NCBI GenBank assembly: GCA_025526915.1
Contig: JAHLKH010000374.1
Coordinates: 1 to 16,418 of the forward strand
Source: Entophlyctis helioformis
Lineage: Eukaryota > Chytridiomycota > Chytridiomycetes > Chytridiales > Chytriomycetaceae
Length of the DNA stretch: 16,418 nucleotides
Direction: 5' to 3'
Positions 1 through 8,572 of this stretch are shown piece after piece. Position 1 is the first letter of the stretch; each line of letters begins with the position of its first letter. A program made the translations under genes and the position numbers. Under the pieces are notes generated by a model, which did not search any database, was not told the origin of the DNA, and saw only the letters and a program-made list of their open reading frames with translations.

Positions 1-2412
1 GACTGCCAAGGACACCACGTCAAGCACGCCTTCAGACGCGGAGGGCAAGGTCACTGTCGAGCTACCGCCAGCGTTGGACGTGCTTGCTGCAATCATGCTG
101 ATGAGTCGCTGTCGCAGATCGGAAGGTTCAACGCGCTGGTCAACCTTGGTGGACGAAGGAGCATCAAGCTGTGCCCACAGCCATCCAGCCGCGATCCATT
201 CGTCCTTGTCACCGAGACCACGCTCTTTTGGTCGGTGATGGGGACAAAGGATGAGCGCATGAATGGCAAGCAGGATCCAGCACTGAAAGGATTGCGAAAG
301 CGTCTCCTGGCTGCGATCAGCAGTAGGTCGCACTTGTTTATGCCATGCTTACATGATGAGATACTAACACTCCACTCTTCTCAAAGAGCCTGGCTCACAG
401 GCCTTGACACTCGAGTCATCCAACAGCAGATCAAGCGCGCGTTCAGCTCAAGCCGCGAGCTGTGTCATGGACATCCTGCTTCCTGGACTCGCCTCGGACA
501 AGCGACGGTATCAAACGCCGGCAGAGGCCCAAGCAGATATGGACGCGGCCAACGCCAAGGCAAAAGAAGACGCCATAGCCAAGGCGACGCAAGGGACTGA
601 TTATCGGCGTATGACTCACGAGCAGCGCGAGGAGCATATCAAGGCTGCGATCAAGGCCGTGCGTCCAGCGAGACCAACCAAGCGGACACGGCTGAGCAAC
701 GTCATGACGGATGGATACACCATCTGCCAGCTGGCTCTCGATTATCGCACAGACCGTCTAGAGTCGCCTTGCAGTATGTGCCGTGCTTGAATGTTTTGGT
801 GTACACATTGGTTCTGACCACTGCCTTGCTCTGCAGGTTCCAAACGAGCATCCAATAAGGCGTTTTCTGCCCAGCTTCAAAGCCTCATTGATGCGACTAA
901 TACTGGTGACTGCGAGCCTGATTACCTGAATGGCACATGTGAGTTGCTGTGCCAATCCAGACGCACACTTGTTGTCCACACCGACTGACATGCCATCCAC
1001 AGCCGCCGATCCAGCCGACCCATCAGCCGCCAAGCCAAAAGCGACCAATCCTGTAAGCCACTTGCATGCCAACCTCGCACTTTGGTGCACATGCATTGCA
1101 CATTCCTCACTCATGCCATGTCATGACAGGCTCAGCGCAACTTTAATGCATCCAGCGACTGCCCAATGTTGCTGATGCCAACAATCTGTTCACTAACCAA
1201 GGCTATGAGACTGTTCGTGTTGTCGGCATTGATTGGGGCAAGCGGTACTGTATGGCGCGTCCAGCATGCTAGTCAATGTCGAGGACAAGACATACACGAT
1301 GGAGTTCCAACTACGTGCTCGCCTCTGGCATGGCACGAGCCGAGCACAGCCTTCAGCGGTGGTATGCATGCAATGACTCTGCCACGTGCACTCTTGACCA
1401 GATCAACTCACAGTGCCTGCCTCTTGTGCCAGGCCTCAACAATCGATATGCCAAGGCAGCCGACATCCAGGCGGCCATTGCATTCAAGACAGCAAAGCAT
1501 GCCGATCCAAACGTCAAGCCTGGCGAGAGAGCCTTTTGGGATCTGCGCTGCCATGCGTACTGCATGCCATTCCTGAATGCACGGGTACGTTTTCTCTGTT
1601 TCTGAATGCCCATTGACATGGCCGCCATGCTGCTTGATTGCCTGCTGATTGCACTGGGACGGCATGGCATGACATTCCACAGAAAGGTCAAGGCCAAGCG
1701 GTTCACCAAGCGCAGCAACAGCACGTCTGATCGCGGAAACGCTCTTGAGGGCATCATGAAGCTGGCAGGATCGACCACTGGCAAGCGCGCATCCGATGCA
1801 TTCAAGGCCTCCCTGTCGACCGAACAAAGTCGACAGAGGACAACATTCCCGTTGTGTGGGCATTTGGCATCGACTTTACAGGTCAAGGTGGCCGGCACGC
1901 CTGTGTTTGAGAAGTTCCTCATCAGGCATCTGTGGTCGTCTGGATATGCCTATGTGCGTCTGATGTCACGCTGTCCATCCATCCATCCATCTGTGCACCA
2001 ACTGACACACGATCATGCACTCACACACACAGATCTACCGCTGTAACGAGAACCTGACCAGCCAGATGTGCCCGCAGTGCAAGCAGCGGATCCCATACGA
2101 GACCGCACCAACCTGCGACGCTACGAGTGCATACCATGCACGACCGTCTACCACCGCGACGTGCTTGGAGCCACCAACATCGGGATGGTCGCACAGGGGC
2201 ATTTGCTTGATGGACAACGGCCGCTCTACTTGACGCACACGCCCGCCGGTCAGCCTGTCATCCAGCAGCCTCCAGCACCGGATCAGCCTGTCGACCAGCG
2301 GCGTCCAAGACAGCCACAGCGTCCAAGACAGCCACAGCATCCAAGACAGCCACAGCGTCCAAGACAGCCACAGCCTGCCCTCAAGTCACTTGACCTGCAT
2401 CCCACACAGTGA
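1..2412 (+). CDS. Fanzor (eukaryotic TnpB-like RNA-guided nuclease), 5' end outside window
   Basis: Fanzors are eukaryotic relatives of TnpB that cut DNA with a RuvC-like domain guided by an RNA made from the gene's own 3' side. Seen here: RuvC-I (VRVVGIDWGKRY, about 1210-1250), a RuvC-II-like stretch (PVVWAFGIDFTG, about 1848-1882), a zinc finger (MCPQC near 2070, YECIPC near 2122-2140), and RuvC-III (HRDVLGATNIG, about 2153-2186). My exons are 1-322, 387-773, 837-938, 1003-1052, 1156-1584, 1687-1953 and 2033-2412. The intron at 323-386 has GTAGGT and a TACTAAC branch point. A Pro/Gln-rich tail precedes the TGA at 2410. The reading frame also needs small shifts that introns do not explain, near 105, 1265 (with an in-frame TAG), 1300, 1840, 1885 and 2100. 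It is therefore either a decaying copy or has consensus errors. The family call is firm; the exact exons are not. Confidence 0.82.
323..386 (+). other. Spliceosomal intron in the Fanzor gene with canonical branch point
   Basis: GTAGGT donor, TACTAAC branch point at about 362-368, pyrimidine-rich run, then an AAAG acceptor. Removing 64 nt joins two open coding stretches in frame. It is the clearest proof that this Fanzor is a spliced eukaryotic gene rather than bacterial contamination. Confidence 0.8.
2302..2373 (+). repeat. Four tandem 18-nt repeats coding the Fanzor Pro/Gln tail
   Basis: Four head-to-tail copies of an 18-mer (cgtccaagacagccacag; the third copy has one C-to-A... position reading catcc instead of cgtcc). 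Each unit encodes six residues of the RPRQPQ type. The array lies after the RuvC-III motif, so it extends a low-complexity C-terminal tail without touching the catalytic core. Confidence 0.9.
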
Positions 2413-2439
2413 CTTGTTTGACTTCCAGCACCAATATGA

Positions 2440-2457
2440 ATCGGGGCACCTCCCGAT
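2440..2457 (+). promoter_or_regulatory. Stem-loop just 3' of the Fanzor stop (candidate guide-RNA or element-end structure)
   Basis: Perfect 6-bp inverted repeat ATCGGG / CCCGAT with a 6-nt loop, 28 nt after the stop codon. Fanzor and TnpB guide RNAs are transcribed from this side of the gene, so a structured element here is in the expected place. The function is inference; a short hairpin alone is weak evidence. Confidence 0.35.
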
Positions 2458-2573
2458 CGACCAATAGGGTCACTTCAATAGAAGGTGAGCATCTCGTTGG
2501 ATGTGCCTCGCCCGCCTGTCGTCGCATGCTCATTGCTGACTCGAACCTTCCATCGTGTGATATGCGGGCATCT

Positions 2574-2596
2574 ATTCGTCGCCTCTTTCGACGAAT
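2574..2596 (+). promoter_or_regulatory. 8-bp perfect hairpin followed by AT-rich segment in the Fanzor 3' flank
   Basis: ATTCGTCG at 2574-2581, loop of 7 nt, CGACGAAT at 2589-2596. Directly after it comes a markedly AT-rich run (2594-2626) containing a second imperfect inverted repeat (AATTCCAA ... TTGGTAATT). The rest of the window is GC-rich. This could be the right end of the mobile element, the 3' part of its guide RNA, or a terminator. No matching left end can be sought because the window starts inside the gene. Confidence 0.35.
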
Positions 2597-2641
2597 TTAA
2601 TTCCAAAATTCTTGGTAATTGTATGAATATCGGGCCTAAAG

Positions 2642-3200
2642 TCGGTGCGTCTATTTCCAACTCGTCGACATTGATCGCGCCAGTCACGACGTCGTCAACA
2701 TGGGCAGGCCCGTCATCTGCTTCGGGGGCGACGACGACGCGACCGACACGGCCAAGCACCGCGCCATGCCCGCCTCGTCCCTCCAACAGCAATACAACGA
2801 GTACCTGCATTACAGGCCTACCCGCCAGCCTCGCAAACAACGACCGCTGCAGGCCTAATGGCCGACATGCTGGGTCGACGGCCGCTGTTTACAGGCCCAA
2901 TGCAAAACGTTGGTATGTCCACATGCCATGATCGCATCCCATTGCAGAAGCAGACGGGGCACTCGGATGGCTGACCGGTCTTCTGCCAATGCGTTTGATG
3001 CAGGTCCGGCTTCCACCACGACCAACGCCTCTGCGGCTGCTCAGCAGAATGCATCGTCTATGCGAGCGGCCCGCGCTGCGTCGTGGGCGGCCACGAGAGC
3101 AGCAGTCGCAAACGCGCACCTCGTCTGTTGCTCCTCGGGAACCGGCCATTTCGAGACAGACTGACAGCGAAATGGCTGCATCTGGTATTGAAGCTGGGTT
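2642..3200 (+). CDS. Possible 5' exons of the Ser/Ala/Pro-rich gene
   Basis: Coding-like pieces occur here in changing frames. One runs from about 2642 to 2812 (includes YFQLVDIDRASHDVVNM and VICFGGDDD). A second, at about 2816-2909, contains MADMLGRRPLFTGPMQNV and ends at a GTATGT donor at 2911. A third, Ala/Ser/Thr-rich, starts after the CAG at 3001-3003. The intron 2911-3003 is reasonable by length and borders; the other junctions are not resolved. A start codon could be ATG 2623 or ATG 2700. I recognise no domain. These may be the N-terminal exons of the gene that is clear after 3201, or a small separate gene. Confidence 0.3.
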
Positions 3201-5170
3201 CCCAATGCGCCAGGTCCCTCGGAAAGTCTTGCAGACACAGCGGCAACTCCAGCGGCAGCCACCGGGCCATCGGCGTCGTCATCATCCCGCTCGCTGTCTG
3301 CCTTTTCGTCGTTGACCGCGCCACACACCTATCTGCCTAGTGGTGGCTACCGAGGCACTGCACCAGCGCCAGCTGCTGCAGGCGTCAGCGGACACATAGA
3401 AAGAGCCCGAGCCCACGCCGAGCAAGCACTGCTGACGTACAACGGTTCTGGCGCTGCGGCGAGCGGATCGCCGACACACATCCTTGTGTCTCTGCAGGAT
3501 TCTGCCACCGATCACACAATGATGGACAATGCAACCTCAAATACCAGCCAGAGCTCTCTTGCAAGCAGCTTTCTATACCCACAATATCCAGACACATCTG
3601 ACGATCTCTCGGACATTTTATCGCAGGCATCGAGCAGTCCCGGGCCTGTCCAGCCGTTGGCAACGCCGAGCTTTGTGGCAAACACCAGCGCACCGACTGT
3701 CAGACCAACATACTCGGCTGTAGCTGCATCGCGTTCTGCATTGGTCGATGCCTTGCGACCAGCCGGCATGGGCGGCATGACGATTGACGCGCAGGTCGAA
3801 GCAGGCTGGCCTGGATCCGACTCGTGTCCACCATGGGTGCATCCGCGTCGTTGGCTGTTGTACGTCCAAGAGCAAGAGGCAGCGGCATCGCAGGAGAATG
3901 CTGCATATGCTGCCAGATTGGGCAGGCCGTTAGCATCTCCTGGACACAACACGAGTGCGTCGAGTAGCCATGGTACGCATTTCAGCCCACAAAACTACAT
4001 TACACGCTTGCACAACGACTACAATGGCAGTGGCAGCATGCAGGTTGACAGCGAACGGGCCTCGCAACGATCCAGCAACACCAACGTCTCAGTGGACGAT
4101 CTCGGCGACCTGATCATCCGTCATCTTCGTCGCGCGCCTTCAATCTGCTGTTTGGTACAGCTTCTGGCAACCGCATTGGTCGCTACTACGGCCCGTATGG
4201 GCATCCAGACGACGACATGGGAAGCGGCACTGGCGGCCTTGGCCTCAACAGTAGCAGTGTGGGTCTCGGAAACAGCAGCGATTTGCTCGATCTTGACACC
4301 ACATCCAGCATTGAGGGTGTTATGGAGCGGCTCCGCAGGCAGCTTCGCAACTCATCCACACAGTTACAGCAGCAACAGGACAGCGAGGATCGCCCTCATC
4401 GACGACGGAGCTCTGCATTGTACGGCGATCGCGCGGGCACATCAACTGGGCTGGCCAGTCATCGGGAAACAAGTGCCGCTGCTTTGCGCGCTTCTGCAAT
4501 TGGACTGCAGCGAGAGCTGCGGAGGGCTCCCCCTGTCGAAACAGGACCGTTTGGTCGTGCTCCTGCATCTGAGCAGACAGACTCGGGATCGAATGCAGCC
4601 AGCCCGCCACCGGCGATGCCCGGCTCTGTGACATCCCTGCGCTCCGTGCCGTCCATGGGGGGATCGACGGGCACAAGAACTGCTCCAGAAACGTTTGCGC
4701 CAGACTCGATGGCATACCTGGACGCGTATGTCGCCAGGGAAGGAAGCAGCTACCGACCGCAGCGTCCACCGCAGCTTCCACCGCGTCCGCCGCCTTCCTT
4801 GCCTCAACAGCAGCCGTTGTCCATCAGATATGTGCCACGGGTGCTGCCGCAGACGAGCGAGCCAACCAACGTCCTTGCAGACACGTTCCACCGCTGGAGC
4901 ATGATCCGCCGCAACCATGCTGCATCGGCATCGGCATCGGCATCGGCCACTGCGTTGTCGCCTGTACCCCGTGTGTCCCAGTTGCGTCTCGACCAAGGCC
5001 AGCCAACCCAGCCTGGTGGATCCGTGCGACAGACGGTCATCCAGATGGAAGCAATGCCGCGCGACAGCGCTGTCGACATGATTGCTGGTCAGCACAATGG
5101 CAATGCAGAGGATGCTGATACCGAAGAAGGCAGCGAAGGGCGTTCTCAGCTGTCTTTGACTCTGCATTGA
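3201..5170 (+). CDS. Low-complexity Ser/Ala/Pro/Gln-rich protein, unknown function
   Basis: Open frame from about 3201 to about 4125, then a shift of one base into the frame that runs to the TGA at 5168. The joint is near 4125-4140, where the codons for RNLLFG-like residues begin. No good intron explains it. The protein is largely disordered: Ser/Thr/Ala-rich (SASSSSRSLSAFSS), a Gly/Ser/Asn stretch (GSGTGGLGLNSS), a Pro-rich SH3-ligand-like run (RPPQLPPRPPPSLP, about 4760-4805) and an Ala-Ser run (4921-4948). The C-terminus is acidic (EDADTEEGSEG). Islands that look ordered are VEAGWPGSDSCPPWVHPRRW (about 3793-3852) and RVLPQTSEPTNVLADTFHRW (about 4837-4896). I recognise no family. A regulator or scaffold is possible but unsupported. 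Confidence 0.6.
4921..4948 (+). repeat. Hexanucleotide run (GCATCG-type) coding Ala-Ser repeats
   Basis: About four to five copies of a catcgg/gcatcg hexamer inside the low-complexity gene, read as alternating Ala and Ser. Likely length-variable by slippage. Confidence 0.7.
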
Positions 5171-5514
5171 CCGTTGGATGTGCACAGCTTTGAATGAATT
5201 ATCGTGTTTGTTTGGTACACCATGACTGTACTGTACGCCTTGTCCCCAAGACACTTGATGCCATACCCTTTCGAGCTTTAGGCCGTTCGTAGATCCCTCA
5301 GTTATGTCATCCCCCTGGTCCGACACGTCCACGGTGATGTATCCATAAAGCACGCTGGAACACACCATGGTCAGCCTGAAGAAACGCGCACATTCGCGAG
5401 GCGAGTGGACGCACGTCTCCAGGCCGCCAGGACACAAGAAAAGAAAAGGAAAAGCCACGAGCCACCAGCGCATCTCGTTGCGCCACCTTGCCATGTGCCA
5501 AAGTGCCAAAACTG
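5171..5514. other. Intergenic stretch before the tRNA
   Basis: About 340 nt with no convincing gene. It includes a purine-rich run (5433-5453). Antisense open frames here do not resemble any protein I know. It contains the 3' flank of the upstream gene. Confidence 0.5.
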
Positions 5515-5520
5515 AAAAAA
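5515..5520 (-). terminator. RNA polymerase III terminator of the tRNA-Gly gene
   Basis: Six consecutive T on the minus strand starting three bases after the tRNA 3' end, the standard Pol III stop signal. Confidence 0.85.
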
Positions 5521-5523
5521 GTG

Positions 5524-5595
5524 TGCATCGACCGGGGGTCGAACCCGGGCCACGCGCTTGGAAGGCGCGGATGTTAACCACTACACTATCGATGC
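5524..5595 (-). tRNA. tRNA-Gly (anticodon UCC)
   Basis: The minus strand folds as a complete 72-nt tRNA without intron. The acceptor stem GCATCGA pairs with TCGATGC and the discriminator is A. The A box reads TAGTGTAGTGG and the B box GGTTCGACCCC. The anticodon loop is CTTCCAA, with anticodon TCC at 5560-5562 reading GGA glycine codons. The anticodon stem GCGCC/GGCGC-type pairing and the T arm CCGGG/CCCGG are intact. A run of six T on the minus strand follows at 5515-5520. Confidence 0.96.
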
Positions 5596-5998
5596 CCCTC
5601 TTGTTCATGTTACGGGCTCAGCCGCCTAGGTCGGTGGATCGCCTCCAGGGGGATGCGCCTCTCGATGTCTCAGGATTGGACATGAGACTCGGCCATTCGG
5701 CCGAGGGGCGCAACCCACAGTTGGGGCGCGCCTAGACGCCACAAGTTGTTTTGGGCTGTTGCCTCATGTCGAGTGTGTTAGGCCGCGTACTTAAAGTGTG
5801 CCTTGCCCTGCGTGCAGTCGGCTCTAAGCGTATCTGACCGACTGCACAGACTTGGCCCGCTACATTCAAATTTCGTTCTGTTGACATTATGAACCATGCA
5901 TGCACTTGATTCTCATTTGCATTGTCCAGCCGTGAAAGCTCAATGGACGGCAGCATTCCATGCCACCAGATGGGGATATGACAAGAAGCACTCTGAAA
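5596..5998. other. Intergenic stretch between tRNA and LINE remnant
   Basis: About 400 nt with nothing convincing. The last part could be the untranslated 3' end of the minus-strand LINE fragment that starts at 5999, but no poly-A tail or tandem tail repeat is visible. Confidence 0.4.
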
Positions 5999-6430
5999 TC
6001 ACACTGCACTGCTGTTTTCCACGTGTCCATGCCCACGCTGCCCATGTGCTGTTCGAACAGCCATGATCCACTCCTCTGTGCACTCTAGCACAAAGTGCGC
6101 AGTCTCCAGCATGTCTCCCAGATCCTCGCCGCACATGATGCAGCATGAACCGTCGCCAAACGGGTTGGTCGAGCAGGTTGGCATTGATGGCGCGGCGAGC
6201 AGTGAAGATGCCGCCCACACGAGAGAGCATCAGAAACCGTGCACCTTCCGAGCGTCGCGGGTCAAAGACCGGATCGCGACTGATGTTGGCTGTCTTCTGC
6301 ATCTGGAAGGCAGTGTGGATGGCAGCCGTGTCGCACTTGCTGGCAGACTTGAGGCCAGGACCGCTGCACAGCAAGCGAGCGAGCAGACCAGCAAAGCCAA
6401 GAGTGCTGTAGATGGACGCGATCGCTTCGA
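5999..6430 (-). mobile_element. Decayed LINE (non-LTR retrotransposon), C-terminal zinc-knuckle fragment
   Basis: On the minus strand, 6374-6190 gives a stretch with RVGGIFTARRAINANLL. After a one-base frame change near 6165-6172 it continues as GDGSCCIMCGEDLGDMLETA and HFVLECTEEW (about 6165-6060). The CX2C ... HX4C pattern followed by ECTEEW is the C-terminal zinc knuckle found after the reverse transcriptase in many LINE ORF2 proteins. The frame break and lack of a reverse transcriptase on this side make it a relic. It sits immediately upstream of the ankyrin gene, in opposite orientation. Confidence 0.7.
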
Positions 6431-6476
6431 GTGGATCTTGTCGTCACAGCCACAAAGCGAGCAAGCAGCTGTGACG

Positions 6477-7946
6477 ATGCAGACGCAGCGACAGACGACA
6501 GGCAACACAGTCGAGCAGCGGGCTGTGGTCGAGCAGGTCGTTGGGGCAAGTGGCAGCCAAGCCGTCGAACCAGGACAGACAGCAGCTGCAACGACCGCAC
6601 AGCCAGGTGTGCCTCGCTATGTGGTGCCGCCAGCCACTGGCGACCTTGCGTTCGGCAGCAGCCACTGGGACGGCAAGCCCGCCGAGATCCACGCCATGAT
6701 CCTCAAGGCAGCCGGCCCGCTCACCCGCTTCGTCAACGGACTGCTCGACGACAAGGACACACTCGACCAAGCGACCAAGCTGGAGCTGTGGATCGATGCG
6801 TTCAAGATGGACTGGCAGGGCGATCTCGACCTGCTGCCTGACGTTGATCTGTCGGCCGACAACGGACTGCTGCTCGCACACTCTCGCTCCATGTACGACC
6901 GTCTCTGCAAGCGCTTTCCTTGGTCAACCGAGACGGAGTGTGCAAGCTCAGACACATACTACAACAACTACACCAAACCGTTCGATAACACTCTTTGTGA
7001 CAGCCACCGGCTGCTTCTCATTCCCATGCGGCACGGCTGGTTCGACCTGCTCGACTTTTCGACTCCGATCACACTCGCTCGCTTGGCCATTCGCTTTGGA
7101 TGCCTCGATCTGCTCAAGCATCTCGACGACAAGTACAAAACACTCCAAGACTGGATGGCTGAGCATGATCCGACAAGCGCTTACTGGCACCGGGCAGTTG
7201 ACCAGGCAGCGGAATACGGACATCTCGATGTTGTGCAGTTCCTGTTTGCGGCGGGCGTGACGGGATGCACGACAGAAGCCATGGATAGGGCGGCTGGCAA
7301 CGGCCACCTTCATGTTCTCAAGTGGTTCCACGAAAACACGAAGGCAGGATGCACGACAAAGGCGATGGACTGGGCGGCCGCAAACGGCCATCTGCATGTC
7401 GTCAAGTGGCTGCATGCCAACCAGACGGAAGGATGCACAGCGTATGCTATGAATTGCGCGGCCAAAAACGGTCACCTGCATGTTCTCAAGTGGCTGCATG
7501 CCAACACGAAGGCAGGATGCACGACTCATGCGATGGACTCGGCGGCTGAAAGCGGTCATCTGCAAACGGTCAAATGGTTGCACGAGACTCGGGGTTTAGA
7601 GTGTACGCCTGGCGCACTCCATAGCGCCATCAACAAGGGGCACATTGACGTCGTCAAGTACATGGACTCCAAAGGCGTCCGCGCGCCAAGCGATGTTCTC
7701 TACACGGTAGCATAAATTTGAGACGCCGGCATGGTCCATCACTTGTTGGATTGCGGATAGGCGGTTGAACTCGATGCGCTCGAACGTGCCAAGACTTCCG
7801 AAATCGCCGATATTCTCCTTGGCAGCCTCACACTGGATCGGGCACAGACGCTGCTTGCGGAAGCAAACCAAGGAGATACCACCAACCAAGTCACCGTCGA
7901 TCAACTCCAAGCGACCGTCGAGAAGCTGCAGGCATCAAGCAGGTGA
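6477..7946 (+). CDS. F-box-like ankyrin-repeat protein, two exons, 471 aa
   Basis: Start chosen at ATG 6477 because the longer open frame upstream runs antisense through the LINE relic. Exon 1 is 6477-7706. The intron 7707-7760 (54 nt, GTAGCA...TAG, phase 0) joins exon 2 (7761-7946), which adds an Ala/Leu/Gln-rich, likely helical tail ending KLQASSR. Residues about 1-55 are disordered and Gln-rich. Residues about 60-100 (WDGKPAEIHAMILKAAGPL) resemble an F-box. From about residue 240 come ankyrin-type repeats of the GHLHVLKWLH kind, each 28 residues, with GCTTKAM at each unit start. By analogy with F-box/ankyrin proteins it may be a substrate adaptor for ubiquitin ligase, but this is inference. 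No frame breaks. LINE fragments flank it on both sides. Confidence 0.85.
7263..7682 (+). repeat. 84-nt tandem ankyrin-coding repeats
   Basis: Units begin at 7263, 7347, 7431, 7515 and 7599, all exactly 84 nt apart (28 codons). The first four begin GGATGCAC. The units are similar at the DNA level (e.g. ggctgcatgcc motifs), suggesting recent duplication or conversion. The last is more diverged. Confidence 0.85.
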
Positions 7947-7949
7947 TGA

Positions 7950-8525
7950 ATGGACAGCCAAGACTCGTGTTGGAATGAAAACGTGATTGCTCGTGCGGCA
8001 CGAGGTTGCAACCATTGACGAGTCCGTTGAGCCACATGGCACTTTCAAACCGACATGGATAAGCGAGATACCGAGGTGGTTGGACGGATCGCTCAGATCG
8101 CCCTTCTTTGGCAGCGAGACGATGGACGCCGACTGCCAAGCCTTTGGAATGACTGCGTCTTCAAAGACGGTGTTGCACATGCGCAGCAGCCCCTGTGCTG
8201 CTCCCGAGATGCCGGCCGCTGCTGATTTCTGGCCCTGGAGCTCCGGCGAGATCTCTGCATCAAACGCCTTGTAGAACGACGCAGGGATGCCGTCGTCGCC
8301 AGATGCCTTGCGTCCATTCATCTCGGAGATGGCTGTCGCAAGGTCGTCCCAACAGAACAGCGAGTCAGTGTTGGGGCTCTGCACGTCTGTTGATCCAGCC
8401 GTCGATCTCGAAACATCTGAGCGTCCTTTGGCAAAGACCGGATCGCGACCAAGACTGGCTGTCCTGTGCACCAAGACGTTGGCCCGACGCCTGGCGAGTG
8501 GCGCCAAGGTCGTCACGCAGGACAC
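7950..8525 (-). mobile_element. Decayed LINE reverse-transcriptase fragment
   Basis: The minus strand reads DLATAISEMNGRKASGDDGI (about 8360-8285), then WQSASIVSLPKKGDLSDPSN (about 8140-8082), then GISLIHVGLKV. These are the first conserved blocks of a LINE reverse transcriptase. After a frame change near 8045-8055 it continues with LVPHEQSRFHSN, matching the next block (LVxxEQxGFR, here degraded). The palm domain with the catalytic aspartates is missing, and the fragment stops at the 3' end of the ankyrin gene. It is dead. Its 5' part (8430-8525) resembles the C-terminal LINE relic at 6250-6330. Confidence 0.8.
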
Positions 8526-8572
8526 GCTCGCGCATCAAATATCCCGCCATTTCAACCGTGGATTGAACAACG

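Follow-up and report, generated by a model that had tools for sequence, protein, structure and literature searches.

Among enzymes that cut DNA under RNA guidance, Fanzors form the eukaryotic branch. In the available text of the two reports on SpuFz1/Spu-1 of Spizellomyces punctatus, the element is ~2.1 kb long, with one single ORF and a putative TA target duplication (PMC10432273, PMC3627910). The accessible part of the latter report also describes CMe-1A of Cyanidioschyzon merolae, ~3 kb in length and without terminal inverted repeats (TIRs), and MCi-2 of Mucor circinelloides, whose subfamilies share a 3′ Fanzor part and differ in their 5′ parts (PMC3627910). Two signatures are given in the portions of the literature available: the order D-X(125,275)-[TS][TS]XX-C4 zinc finger-X(5,50)-RD (PMC3627910), and a near-exclusive DPG at RuvC-I combined with a glutamate that precedes the first CxxC by six residues (PMC10711439). 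hAT is named there among the Fanzor1-associated transposases (PMC10711439).

Here we describe an element of the chytrid Entophlyctis helioformis: how it ends and duplicates its target, how many copies there are, how its introns and motifs are arranged, and which right-end block is conserved. It is probably a large TIR transposon with a single gene, which unites a FEN/XPG-like nuclease with a RuvC nuclease of Fanzor-like, TnpB-derived type. The window, that is, the whole stretch of DNA analysed, is contig C374 (16,418 bp), and genome-wide counts were taken over the 29.57-Mb assembly.

Element ends, target duplication and copy number

Window positions 1–2636 (+) are occupied by the right-hand end of a TIR DNA transposon. 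Its last 24 bases form the right terminal repeat TGGTAATTGTATGAATATCGGGCC (2613–2636, +), of which the left end is an imperfect inverse (18/24 in the C49 copy). The right copy of an 8-bp target-site duplication, TAAAGTCG, follows directly (2637–2644, +) and would at the same time form the start of the predicted guide; it recurs before the left end of the near-identical C151 copy, which gives 8/8 for the window's own element. The first-pass annotation had placed a gene at 1–2640 beside ordinary genes. What lies there is the 3′ portion of a multicopy transposon bounded by inverted repeats and 8-bp duplications; the proposed right border is close to the true one (2636), and the start lies well before position 1.

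The right-end 24-mer, allowing up to three mismatches, occurs 168 times in the genome against 0 in the reversed control, and the inverted left end 86 times against 0. Zinc-finger places number at least 150 (150 of 205 candidates scored) and places of the FEN-like exon 1 at least 149 (150 of 159 candidates scored); set side by side, the last two counts suggest that the FEN-like/Fanzor-like partnership is old and general in the family. The family thus comprises roughly 150 copies in this genome, a figure that duplicate contigs (C374/C151; C121/C312) may inflate.

Target duplications were scored in 20 assembled left/right pairs by a fixed 8-bp comparison. Seven pairs agree at 8/8, four at 7/8 and one at 6/8, and a duplication is lacking (5/8 or less) in the remaining eight (C10, C2, C5a, C18, C60, C141, C52 and C49); the score threshold was reached by 11 of the 20 true pairs and by 2.7% of shuffled partners. 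Among the 11 pairs that agree at 7/8 or better, ten (C12, C5 near 264 kb, C6, C24, C63, C67, C102, C138, C23 and C168) contain the FEN-like exon as well as the Fanzor-like 3′ part, both on one strand, and the eleventh, the 1-kb C35 pair, encloses the Fanzor-like 3′ part only. Pairs that show a good duplication and in which no insert is known (C6, C24, C102, C138 and C5 near 264 kb) span ~9 kb, so that the element without nested inserts measures about 9–10 kb; the C151 element spans 14.3 kb, Ty3-type insert included. Nested inserts were typed from motifs that we take to be those of Ty3 and Ty1 retrotransposons.

Right flanks favour A at the second (22/31) and third (19/31) bases. The same bases follow the right repeat in C10 and L028 (C166), and likewise in L026 and L029; these shared bases may mean that the contigs are duplicates or that the end extends further. 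In the C10/L028 group the element may terminate beyond the repeat, as in the subfamily described next, which is one possible reason for the missed target duplications. A subfamily (L001, L004–L006, L008, L031–L038) has ~48 more shared bases after GGGCC, followed by unrelated flanks; this extension contains a GCCGGC...GCCGGC hairpin and ends in what is presumably a hAT-like terminus. The terminal 24-mer also recurs, with different sequence before it, in L033 near 4481 and L035 near 4472, ~1.1 kb past a Fanzor end in loci that are 99.9% alike there.

Four other accounts of the element were discarded. A stand-alone host gene is ruled out by the number of copies, their termini and the target duplications around them. 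One-ended or 5′-truncated spread (LINE- or Helitron-like), prompted by the variable 5′ borders, is ruled out because the borders of C151/C23 and C52 are nested Ty3-/Ty1-type inserts and true left ends were found. A shorter, 5.3-kb element drawn from the C49/C52 comparison was dropped on further analysis, and a 4-bp target duplication, guessed from C49 alone, was ruled out by the 20-pair comparison.

No transposase was recognised in the C49 ORFs scanned (10 in the 5′ part and 4 further on), so movement would need a transposase in trans. hAT elements generate 8-bp target duplications, and the length of the duplication, with a left repeat that we take to resemble hAT ends, may point to a hAT affiliation. 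The hAT transposase profiles PF05699 and PF14372 gave no match, and neither did the controls. Elsewhere in the genome, KDZ-type transposases give four matches over cut-off, on C334, C271 and C396. Since KDZ elements also generate 8-bp duplications, they are a possible transposase source.

Gene structure and intactness

The gene starts well upstream of position 1, and the window holds its 3′ part, all on the forward strand, with seven introns. The 3′ part of a large exon (1–322), in which relatives read ...KKAAKDATSSTPSDTEGKVTVELPPALDVLAAIML... and the window copy is frame-broken near 99, is followed by intron 1 (323–386, GT-AG), which has a TACTAAC branch site; the first-pass annotation had noted a perfect branch point in one of the introns. 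Exons at 387–773, 837–938 and 1003–1052 are separated by introns 2 (774–836) and 3 (939–1002), and intron 4 (1053–1129) precedes the exon with RuvC-I G-I-D-W-G (1130–1361; Asp codon 1231–1233). An intron at 1362–1432 leads to the exon reading LNNRYAKAAD... (1433–1584), and the next one (1585–1682; acceptor at 1682, alternatively 1686) to the exon with the WAFGIDFTGQGG block (1683–1953). After a final intron (1954–2032), the last exon (2033–2412, stop TGA at 2410–2412) carries a relocated glutamate, a C4 zinc finger, the RuvC-III aspartate and a variable tail. An intron-rich gene within a eukaryotic chromosome, with at least six introns, had been proposed, and these six were borne out; the seventh, at 1362–1432, became visible only on comparison of copies, whose frame otherwise appears to shift at one common position.

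Splice-site conservation was assessed for the first six introns in 14 aligned copies. The sites are conserved throughout, apart from exceptions, as aligned, at the intron 1 donor (L022, L024), the intron 2 acceptor (L017, L019, L020, L022, L024) and intron 3 (L015, L016, L019). After splicing, three of 22 loci are open throughout: L012 (692 codons), L018 (749) and L019 (669). The zinc finger lies in one of the three longest frames in 16 of the 22, the others being frame-broken.

The window copy is frame-broken in exons 1, 5, 6 and 7. C151 is the same locus at 99% identity, downstream flank included; over ~4.1 kb, the two differ by 18 indel events and 24 substitutions. These differences are spread over element and flank alike, which suggests that the small contig C374 may owe some of its frame damage to errors of assembly.

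Fanzor-like half

In the window, GIDWG, CNENLTSQMCPQC, C-P-Q-C...C-I-P-C and HRDVLGATNIG follow one another in TnpB order, in more than one frame, with Asp/Glu/Asp codons at 1231–1233 (GIDWG), 2048–2050 (CNENLTSQMCPQC) and 2158–2160 (HRDVLGATNIG). Spliced L018 matches PF07282 at 4.6e-10, above the curated cut-off, and guided_TnpB is matched by 3/3 aligned copies (best 1.8e-8, below the model's own cut-off); these matches argue that the window motifs, which the earlier annotation had rightly recognised, are not due to chance. The unspliced pieces of the window by themselves match PF07282 weakly (0.0024 and 0.045). That annotation had named the lack of any profile hit beyond the zinc finger as a refutation, and the PF07282 and guided_TnpB matches come close to this: they span the zinc finger and RuvC-III only. 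For the remainder of the Fanzor-like assignment the evidence is the order of the motifs, the glutamate in its relocated place and the conservation of the right-end block.

A RuvC-II-like block had also been proposed. The canonical RuvC-II glutamate is not seen in the WAFGIDFTGQGG exon; a relocated glutamate stands at 2048–2050, six residues ahead of the first CxxC (E-NLTSQM-C in 4/4 copies listed and in the window). The spacing E-x6-CxxC-x16-CxxC-x6-D is likewise found in 4/4 among the copies listed, and the published Fanzor order is present in alignment A2 (D37, T229-S230, four Cys, HRD). DPG at RuvC-I is absent: DWG stands there in all 20 readable loci of the 22 spliced, and the other two (L015, L021) are frame-broken at this position. 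The stretch from DWG to the relocated glutamate is 186 residues in A2, which exceeds the 120–160 of the Fanzor pattern in the available text of PMC10711439. The first-pass identification as a Fanzor therefore stands for the TnpB/Fanzor type, by order and relocated glutamate, and is weakened by DWG in place of DPG. By its motifs the protein appears Fanzor-like, yet DPG, one defining feature, is missing.

The same DWG bears on its origin. Eukaryotes might have captured, independently and outside the Fanzor clade, a TnpB with a relocated glutamate and D-hydrophobic-G, from which the gene would descend; the uniform DWG of the readable loci fits such an event, and the accessible part of PMC10711439 describes a D-hydrophobic-G, relocated-glutamate clade beside the DPG clade that holds Fanzors. 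Against this, a single P-to-W change in a fast-evolving Fanzor1 gives the same result, and we regard independent capture as rather doubtful.

Sequence searches of PDB gave no meaningful structural relative (best TnpB-like chain LaTranC, E 0.76). L018 residues 300–620 had no homologue at E 0.01 in the protein collection, and viral contigs yielded none either. The cutter itself is of a known kind; the apparent fusion and the altered active-site motif are unusual.

FEN-like half and the probable fusion

The FEN-like N-terminal half is what is most unusual here. It lies upstream of the window, at the start of the same open frame. The first exon of the C49 copy begins MGVIGL at position 8489, and splicing of nine introns (one GC-AG) yields 938 codons in one frame; conservation of the splice sites of the first introns can be seen across six relatives, three of them near-identical to each other. 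Seven acidic residues (D58, D108, E194, D196, D221, D223 and D281) are invariant in alignment A5, which holds five sequences, the most distant 33% identical. After an N-terminal MG, all seven match the order of FEN/XPG catalytic acids, with the order in FEN1 as we take it to be, and the EAD and (D/N)DSDL motifs match the host's own EXO1.

FEN-type Pfam profiles gave nothing significant (Pox_G5 0.0052, XPG_I_2 0.09, 5_3_exonuc_N 0.085), and unrelated families scored equally weakly (Alpha_kinase 0.0062, ribosomal L23 0.098, FAD_binding_4 0.081, DUF7742 0.11). hhalign against two host FEN-family proteins gave a probability of <1%, structure prediction for exon 1 failed to give a confident fold (pLDDT 40.8), and C49 residues 1–380 had neither a homologue at E 0.01 in the protein collection nor a meaningful one in PDB. 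Exon 1 places are 23–100% identical to the C98 query, with three further contigs (C15, C182, C252) identical to it; some copies thus look recent, unless these contigs are duplicates.

The chain from FEN-like part through linker and acidic stretch to the window exons was pieced together from different copies. In L016, the exon runs on in frame into a stretch from which it is cut off in C49 by a frame break; this stretch, open in C49 over 593 codons, includes the first exon of the window. The whole protein is estimated at ~2,000 residues and at least 16 introns. The composite nature of the chain, together with the C49 frame break just after the 938-codon frame, would also suit two neighbouring genes, a FEN-like and a separate Fanzor-like one, transcribed in succession within the same transposon, and the Fanzor of S. 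punctatus SPu-1 is a single separate ORF in the available text of PMC3627910. Because one frame spans nine introns, L016 continues onward without a stop, and the C10 FEN-like exon lies ~0.4 kb from a left end, we consider two genes unlikely. The two domains are likely fused in one predicted protein.

Homogenised nuclease block

Over the equivalent of window positions 961–2220, introns included, copies L011–L038 are mostly 0.86–0.97 identical between groups, with dips in one group to 0.77 (1141–1200) and 0.73 (1261–1320); over positions 1–720 the identity is 0.52–0.82. Introns are as alike as exons, which points to copying between elements, by gene conversion or template switching, and not to selection alone. 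The pattern speaks for a nuclease block repeatedly copied between elements. Our search of the open-licence literature found no report of gene conversion among Fanzor copies. A further block of ~330 bp before the C49 gene (C49:7826–8146) is 92–97% alike between groups whose coding parts are ~74% alike, and is possibly a promoter or an exchanged module.

Right-end block and candidate guide RNA

Downstream of the stop codon, positions 2430–2636 (+) form the conserved non-coding right end. Across 33 aligned copies, conservation is strong over the ~200 nt leading up to the right end, and the coding tail just upstream (2281–2400) falls to 0.56–0.75 identity in two diverged groups, one of them at low coverage. 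Two hairpins are kept in 33/33 copies, one with a single compensatory change. Covariation is overall no greater than in shuffles, with most measures equal, and the folding z-score is −1.85. A third hairpin (helix 3), with an apparent compensatory change, was discarded since its key pair is unpaired in 18 of 32 cells. The block is consistent with a guide-RNA scaffold, for which it is a candidate.

Within window positions 1–6000, only a tRNA reaches the Rfam gathering score, a tRNA-Gly (TCC) gene at 5523–5595 (−). Further on, an open frame at 5997–7715 (+) carries what we take to be ankyrin-like repeats, and a frame at 7935–8534 (−; GRKASGDDGIP...SLIHVGLKV) is presumably a LINE-type reverse transcriptase fragment.

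The right end could instead be conserved merely as a transposon end, with the whole family decaying and inactive. The weak covariation, a pN/pS of 0.535 among seven readable copies and the small share of open loci (3/22) would fit. Yet ~200 nt are conserved, far beyond the needs of a 24-nt repeat, three spliced copies are open, and the identical exon 1 copies of C98, C15, C182 and C252 count against decay unless those contigs are duplicates. On balance, general decay seems improbable to us.

Under the transposon-borne fusion reading that we prefer, the right-end block would be transcribed onward into flanking DNA as a guide RNA, with a scaffold at ~2430–2636 and a guide that begins at 2637 and is read from the flank. 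The nuclease would then cut flank-matching sites, such as the empty allele after excision or the uninserted homologue, and repair of the cut would copy the element back. At the break, the FEN-like domain might remove flaps or shorten 5′ ends, and movement itself would proceed via a transposase supplied in trans.

Comparison with known systems

The role of Fanzors for the host transposon is unsettled, and the apparent fusion of a cutter with a flap-type nuclease would make 'cut and copy back' directly testable. It would also offer genome engineering a natural fusion protein, and the DWG motif bears on whether Fanzors entered eukaryotes once or several times. Were all parts to hold jointly, namely a second TnpB capture, fusion to a FEN/XPG-like domain, ~150 copies and a nuclease block recopied between subfamilies, which we do not expect, RNA-guided cutting and end-processing would be joined in one mobile enzyme. 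In the open-licence literature we found no report of a FEN-like/Fanzor fusion or of Fanzors of E. helioformis.

As far as the available text of the two reports goes, the element shares with Spu-1 a chytrid host, a Fanzor1-type protein, a TIR element in many copies, a conserved RNA-like region from stop to right repeat, the presence of Ty3 elements at certain loci, no recognised transposase inside the repeats, and copies without the gene, or ghosts (PMC10432273, PMC3627910). Unlike Spu-1, it measures ~9–10 kb, has at least 16 predicted introns, an 8-bp duplication and a FEN-like N-terminal half, and reads DWG, not DPG. Two ~1-kb elements (L007, C35:164492–165480; C436:7860–8911), with both ends, a zinc-finger place and little else, resemble the S. 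punctatus ghosts, which have no ORF, whereas these keep the zinc-finger place.

In the accessible part of PMC3627910, CMe-1A likewise reaches ~150 diverged Fanzor copies in one eukaryotic genome, although it lacks the TIRs present here. MCi-2 has, as here, a common 3′ part and differing 5′ parts (PMC3627910, available text); the element described here has TIRs, and the 5′ differences of C151, C23 and C52 are nested LTR retrotransposons. The relocated-glutamate, D-hydrophobic-G TnpB of PMC10711439, likened by its description in the available text, has the same active-site pair; the gene of E. helioformis, by comparison, is eukaryotic, interrupted by introns and predicted to carry a fused FEN-like domain.
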